Assembly (NCBI RefSeq): GCF_006517175.1
Contig: NZ_CP041186.1
Span: 1,701,001 to 1,765,000, forward strand
Direction of reading: 5' to 3'
From: Persicimonas caeni
GTDB lineage: Bacteria > Myxococcota_A > Bradymonadia > Bradymonadales > Bradymonadaceae
DNA length: 64,000 nt
The notes under the pieces are model-generated. The model ran no database searches, was not told where the DNA came from, and saw nothing but the letters and a program-made list of their open reading frames with translations. Shown in pieces: positions 29,067 to 29,253 of the stretch. How positions within the stretch are numbered: the stretch's first letter is position 1; every line of letters begins with the position of its first letter. A program made the translations under genes and the position numbers.

Positions 29067-29094
29067 TTGACAGACGCTCACTCTTTGCTAAAGT
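29067..29094 (+). promoter_or_regulatory. Strong sigma-70 promoter of the small RNA
   Basis: TTGACA (29067-29072) is a perfect -35; a 16-bp spacer leads to TAAAGT (29089-29094). Transcription would begin at about 29101, exactly at the base of the folded RNA described next. Confidence 0.7.
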
Positions 29095-29100
29095 GGGTCT

Positions 29101-29198
29101 TGCCTTCGGAGGACGGTCGCACGTAATTCCCCCCAGACCGTTAGCCAAGTACGTGTCCTATGGCTACGCATACGTCCTCTGAAGGCATTTTTCTTTTC
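29101..29198 (+). ncRNA. Candidate small RNA with three-way junction and C-rich loop
   Basis: Helix P1 pairs 29101-29112 with 29176-29187 (one G-U) and can extend to 29115/29173. P2 pairs ACGGTC (29113-29118) with GACCGT (29136-29141) and presents a 17-base loop containing AATTCCCCCCA. P3 pairs TAGCCA (29142-29147) with TGGCTA (29161-29166). CACGTA in the P2 loop is complementary to TACGTG in the P3 loop, allowing a loop-loop contact. A tail TTTTTCTTTTC (29188-29198) after P1 would terminate transcription. The promoter lies immediately upstream. The unit is about 98 bases long and fits no class I recognise. It could instead be a leader element of the glycerate kinase gene 90 bases downstream. 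Confidence 0.65.
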
Positions 29199-29206
29199 TT
29201 GCAGTT

Positions 29207-29253
29207 CTCCCCGTCCGGGGAGGTGCCGAGCGTAGTTTGCGAGGCGGAGGGGT
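29207..29253. repeat. Dispersed palindromic element, copy 1
   Basis: CTCCCCGTCCGGGGAG hairpin followed by GTGCCGAGCG and GCGAGGCGGAGGGG. A second copy with the same order of parts is at 47674-47724. Both are intergenic, as expected of a REP-like element. Confidence 0.65.

Follow-up and report, generated by a model that had tools for sequence, protein, structure and literature searches.

A pseudoknotted small RNA with a conserved C-run, encoded by a free-standing gene in Persicimonas caeni and its relatives

Positions 29095-29200 of the window analysed here, a 64,000-nucleotide stretch of Persicimonas caeni (RefSeq assembly GCF_006517175.1, contig NZ_CP041186.1, positions 1,701,001 to 1,765,000), are a free-standing small-RNA gene. 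Its relatives share a three-way junction braced by a covarying pseudoknot, which leaves a run of C residues in a loop, and copies occur in every sampled genome of the bacterial family. Hfq is absent from all 21 of these genomes. On balance we think it probable that this is a dedicated small-RNA gene whose product would use the C-run as a seed for Hfq-free repression of mRNAs with G-runs at their ribosome-binding sites.

The small-RNA gene and its fold

The locus lies between two genes, one acyl-CoA dehydrogenase-like and the other glycerate kinase-like, both named from their reading frames and not by family search. The stretch 29067-29200 holds, all on the forward strand, a promoter, the fold and a T-rich tail. 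The original prediction had placed a consensus promoter at the base of the fold, and this was borne out by a promoter scan, which gave two promoter-like sites in 2.5 kb against 0.3 expected; the -35 element TTGACA (29067-29072), found in the same place in most copies, is followed after a 16-nt spacer by the -10 element TAAAGT (29089-29094), which is also supported by comparison of copies. From the position of the latter, the transcript is predicted to start at about 29100-29102. Transcription by a sigma-70-type RNA polymerase would run from about 29100 to the T-tract and yield a discrete RNA of about 95-100 nt.

The closing stem, P1, has its 5′ strand at 29101-29112, with a possible extension through 29113-29114, in which case the stem is 29101-29114/29174-29187; its 3′ strand (29174-29187) is supported both by folding and by alignment covariation. 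The second stem, P2 (helix 2 in the alignment, 99.2% paired), is formed by ACGGTC (29113-29118) and GACCGT (29136-29141), and the third, P3 (helix 4, 99.4% paired), by TAGCCAAG (29142-29149) and 29158-29166, where A29160 is bulged. Two features first noticed from the letters of this copy are both present: a complementarity between loops (CACGTA/TACGTG in the original prediction), which amounts to 7 bp between GCACGTA (29119-29125) and TACGTGT (29150-29156, within the P3 loop), and a loop of six C residues, UCCCCCCA, at 29129-29134. The closed fold does run into a T-tract, TTTTTCTTTTCTT (29188-29200), straight after the closing stem; the same intrinsic terminator tail occurs in many copies, and a simple terminator scan overlooked it because the loop of its hairpin is the whole domain. 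Folding of the window RNA gave -37.6 kcal/mol (z = -4.1), with one of 200 shuffles as stable. A further hairpin, CTCCCC-GTCC-GGGGAG, lies 3′ of the T-tract at 29207-29222 and has no T-run of its own; in several relatives its place is taken by a second full terminator.

Covariation support for the fold and the pseudoknot

The original prediction had named a lack of conserved pairing in relatives as a result that would count against it; the pairing is conserved, and 25 of the 31 pairs are changed on both sides. In the alignment used (45 members, 44 distinct rows), 94.1% of cells are paired across P1, P2, P3 and the pseudoknot, compared with 35-43% when the partners are slid by one to three columns, and the covariation score, 0.664, exceeds those of shuffled (0.223 ± 0.011) and slid (0.08-0.13) alignments. 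Pairs changed on both sides make up 9/9 of the modelled pairs of P1 and 7/8 of those of P3.

The pseudoknot (helix 3) provides an independent test, since the alignment was fitted to P1-P3 and not to the loop-loop contact, and here too 7/8 pairs are changed on both sides. When the two loops are searched for their best helix independently of column pairing, that helix has a mean length of 6.7 bp and a score of 15.3, while exchanging loops between members lowers the score to 10.1 ± 0.47, with none of 2,000 exchanges matching the observed value; the same test on 24 divergent representatives gave none as good in 5,000. Loop pairs such as GACCGTCAT/ATGACGGTC, GACGCACA/TGTGTGTC and CTCGACA/TGTCGAG illustrate how far the sequence has changed. 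The complementary loops thus form a genuine, covarying pseudoknot. As a refinement of the predicted contact, the helix continues directly from the second stem: the pseudoknot strand usually abuts the 5′ strand of P2 with no linker, so that the two can stack, probably into about 12-13 bp. In the proposed architecture, P1 would close a three-way junction whose other arms are P2 and P3, pairing between the P3 loop and the 5′ portion of the P2 loop would make P2 and the pseudoknot helix a near-continuous stack, and a strand of 9-10 nt carrying CCCCCC would return alongside the stack to the 3′ strand of P2, unpaired and exposed to solvent.

The sequences of the pseudoknot and P3 vary freely, those of P2 and of some positions in the loops hardly at all. 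Among RNAs that bind ligands, pseudoknotted three-way junctions are common, and together with these near-invariant positions this brings to mind a trans-acting riboswitch, in which a metabolite or ion would stabilise the pseudoknot and so open or close the C6 strand. We regard such ligand sensing as improbable, as few unpaired bases are invariant apart from the C6 run and a UA of the P3 loop, and the copies have no consistent neighbouring pathway.

Distribution and copy number

A covariance search over related genomes, the check proposed for the element, found the pairing kept and gave about 47 members in 25 genomes. These comprise all 21 genomes of the bacterial family, with one to six copies each, and four genomes of a single genus, which belongs to a different family of the same class. 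A DNA search had recovered the element from many of the family's genomes, including a second copy from that of P. caeni; a first covariance model was built from 19 copies, and a second added the fourth P. caeni copy (G000:C1:144241), bringing that genome's complement to four, and one more in another genome (G004). No credible member was found elsewhere among 377 genomes of the phylum, in a search where the strict filters of Infernal may have missed distant members; the weak matches outside the class (G199, G269, G288 and G347) are missing one or more of P3, the C6 loop and a sound fold and are put down to chance. Scanning 84,980 species genomes for the exact pattern yielded 20 stretches, of which 19 were strongly confirmed by the model and one was weak. 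The confirmed stretches belong to bradymonad or loosely named MAG records, Lujinxingia vulgaris being among the named matches. The weak one, in a Phycisphaerae MAG (L114), has a fold of its own that differs from that of the family and was likewise treated as chance.

Some members depart from the common arrangement. One genome (G003) has a tandem arrangement of two copies at a distance of 135 nt (L041, 9647-9881); the second lacks its own promoter and may be cotranscribed with the first. In a subgroup (L087, L088, L089, L092 and L093) the closing stem is CGGAGTG...CGCTCCG and there is no promoter with TTGACA; these copies may be under another sigma factor. Two divergent copies in a further genome (L090 and L091, G001), in which the C-run has only five residues and the closing stem is shortened or altered, are possibly decaying.

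Independence from neighbouring genes

Promoter-like sites with at least 9 of 12 matching positions lie just before P1 in 29/47 copies, the corresponding figure for positions drawn at random from these loci being 1%. The divergent subgroup and the copies from the other family have no clear sigma-70 site, so that paralogues may be controlled differently. Paralogous copies with different promoters would provide one seed for different conditions. T-tracts follow many of the copies, and several copies have a second strong terminator behind them.

The original prediction had left the choice between a trans-acting regulatory RNA and a riboswitch for the glycerate kinase gene. Among the copies, that gene adjoins the RNA only at the window locus, no consistent downstream gene on the same strand was found, and copies within multi-copy genomes have different neighbours. 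By crude gene calls, the nearest downstream gene lies on the opposite strand in at least ten copies (e.g. L039, L041, L083, L095, L100, L104 and L107), and the glycerate kinase riboswitch is therefore rejected, leaving the trans-acting, free-standing RNA, which is supported by the promoters and terminators, the varied neighbours, the multiple copies per genome and the very strong covariation. Two features expected of a trans-encoded small RNA are found here: its own promoter and terminator with no fixed role as the leader of one gene, and a conserved structure with covariation.

One neighbourhood does recur. In about 12 loci (L032, L034, L035, L036, L037, L038, L043-L045, L097, L098 and L105) the RNA lies upstream of a gene for a membrane protein of about 740 aa with a sulfatase/alkaline-phosphatase-like domain, on the same strand and 71-357 nt downstream, often with a PlsX-like gene beside it. 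The recurrence of this gene on the same strand is what one might expect of a cis-acting leader or riboswitch, with glycerate kinase as the regulated gene in the window and the sulfatase-like gene in these loci. We nevertheless hold such a cis role to be highly improbable, given the strong and often tandem terminators behind the copies at the sulfatase-type loci, the unrelated genes downstream of other copies (including that of the window, and with at least ten convergent) and the different neighbours of copies sharing a genome. Because of those terminators, the sulfatase-like neighbourhood appears from the sequence to be a conserved address rather than a leader arrangement.

The C6 loop and its possible targets

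Every copy has a C-run in the loop, of five to seven residues and of at least six in 44/47, which is kept while the surrounding pairing partners change freely. As the pseudoknot sequence varies and the C-run does not, sequence-specific contacts of the run inside the fold are unlikely, and the simplest reading would be that it recognises something outside the RNA.

That something could also be a protein. The pseudoknot and the C6 strand might together form a binding site for a protein or ribonucleoprotein, with RNA polymerase, the ribosome or some C-binding protein as candidate partners, making the RNA a sponge or a polymerase modulator and not an mRNA-pairing molecule. The fold, with its elaborate pseudoknot and three-way junction, is conserved far beyond what plain antisense pairing needs, and at least one copy is present in every genome of the family, as expected of a housekeeping RNA. 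Against this, no unpaired element is conserved as rigidly as the homopolymer C6, and such a run is typical of base-pairing seeds; a 6S-like version is disfavoured by the absence of a long bulged stem. Overall we consider protein binding an unlikely alternative. A sponge for CsrA, which is encoded, was rejected, as GGA motifs occur only in the paired P1 strand of the window copy and not in its loops.

Under the base-pairing reading, which we prefer, the C6 seed would pair, without Hfq, with G-runs at the ribosome-binding sites of several mRNAs and would thereby block their translation. ProQ, too, is absent from the P. caeni genome. Pairing with ribosome-binding sites had been suggested for GGAGG-type sequences; it is plausible by analogy, and the C6 run fits G-run sites (GGGGG) better. 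In the P. caeni genome, GGGGG runs are most frequent at -12 to -9 relative to start codons, which places them at the position of the ribosome-binding site. In a sample of 1245 genes from two genomes, 35 (about 3%) have G5 runs in the Shine-Dalgarno zone, and the pattern TGGGGGGA-N2-8-ATG occurs 96 times in six genomes, against 13 in a reversed control, some of these occurrences being the RNA's own complement or non-genes. Publicly available stranded RNA-seq of Bradymonas sediminis FA350 (PRJNA559243, PRJNA559253; PMC7460792) covers another bradymonad, which carries copies at G008:C1 184032-184131 and 2924265-2924362.

Several perfect complements of C6 stood before lipoprotein genes. An envelope or lipoprotein regulon was considered but found no support: in the 1245 genes, which had been sampled without bias, secreted proteins are 31.4% of the G5 genes and 32.1% overall, and lipobox pattern counts for GGGGGG are not higher than for GGGAGG. 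Secreted proteins are somewhat frequent among the G5 genes of P. caeni and account for 0/13 in Bradymonas, and no consistent functional class was found among the genes with G5 ribosome-binding sites in the 1245-gene sample. Two pairs of near-identical stretches in P. caeni (L176/L180 and L166/L167) have short ORFs after a TGGGGGGA site, in one pair of 86 aa with 96.5% identity, and are possibly a repeated mobile element.

Comparison with known small RNAs

The original prediction recognised no class and proposed an Rfam scan; the locus has no Rfam match at the gathering threshold or at E ≤ 10, and none was returned for ten diverse members at E ≤ 1. In the literature searched, no description of a small RNA from Bradymonadales or Bradymonadia was found.

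Seeds of this general kind are familiar. RsaE/RoxS of Firmicutes and cuckoo/CcsR of alphaproteobacteria direct a C-rich single-stranded seed against Shine-Dalgarno regions and are sometimes multicopy, features that the bradymonad RNA would share; their folds are different, with no pseudoknot brace, and their covariance models do not match it. The Qrr RNAs are likewise several near-identical molecules expressed from different loci, each with its own promoter, but they use Hfq, which the bradymonad family lacks, and their structures are unrelated.

The closest functional parallel is the actinobacterial 6C RNA, known as B11 in Mycobacterium abscessus, a short independent RNA with C-runs in its loops that represses eccB4 when these loops pair with a six-G tract at its ribosome-binding site, independently of a chaperone (PMC10470900). 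A similar mode of action is proposed for the bradymonad RNA, and both sides of such pairing, a C6 run and G5 Shine-Dalgarno sites, exist in bradymonads. Whereas 6C/B11 has two separate C-rich loops (PMC10470900), the RNA from Myxococcota has one C6 strand in a pseudoknotted three-way junction; membership of the 6C family was rejected, as the covariance model is unmatched and the two-hairpin C-loop layout is absent.

This is a new RNA family on a new scaffold and, if the proposal is right, a known kind of regulator. More speculatively, and we think this rather doubtful, the braced junction may be a categorically new regulatory architecture, a rigid, chaperone-free scaffold for C6, perhaps gated by a signal, and the main post-transcriptional regulator in the Hfq-less, predatory Bradymonadia. 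For Rfam it is a new family, whose fold is supported by covariation, whose copies occur in all sampled genomes of the bacterial family and whose seed can be tested; if the pairing is true, C-rich seeds that need no chaperone would have a second route, structurally unrelated to actinobacterial 6C.
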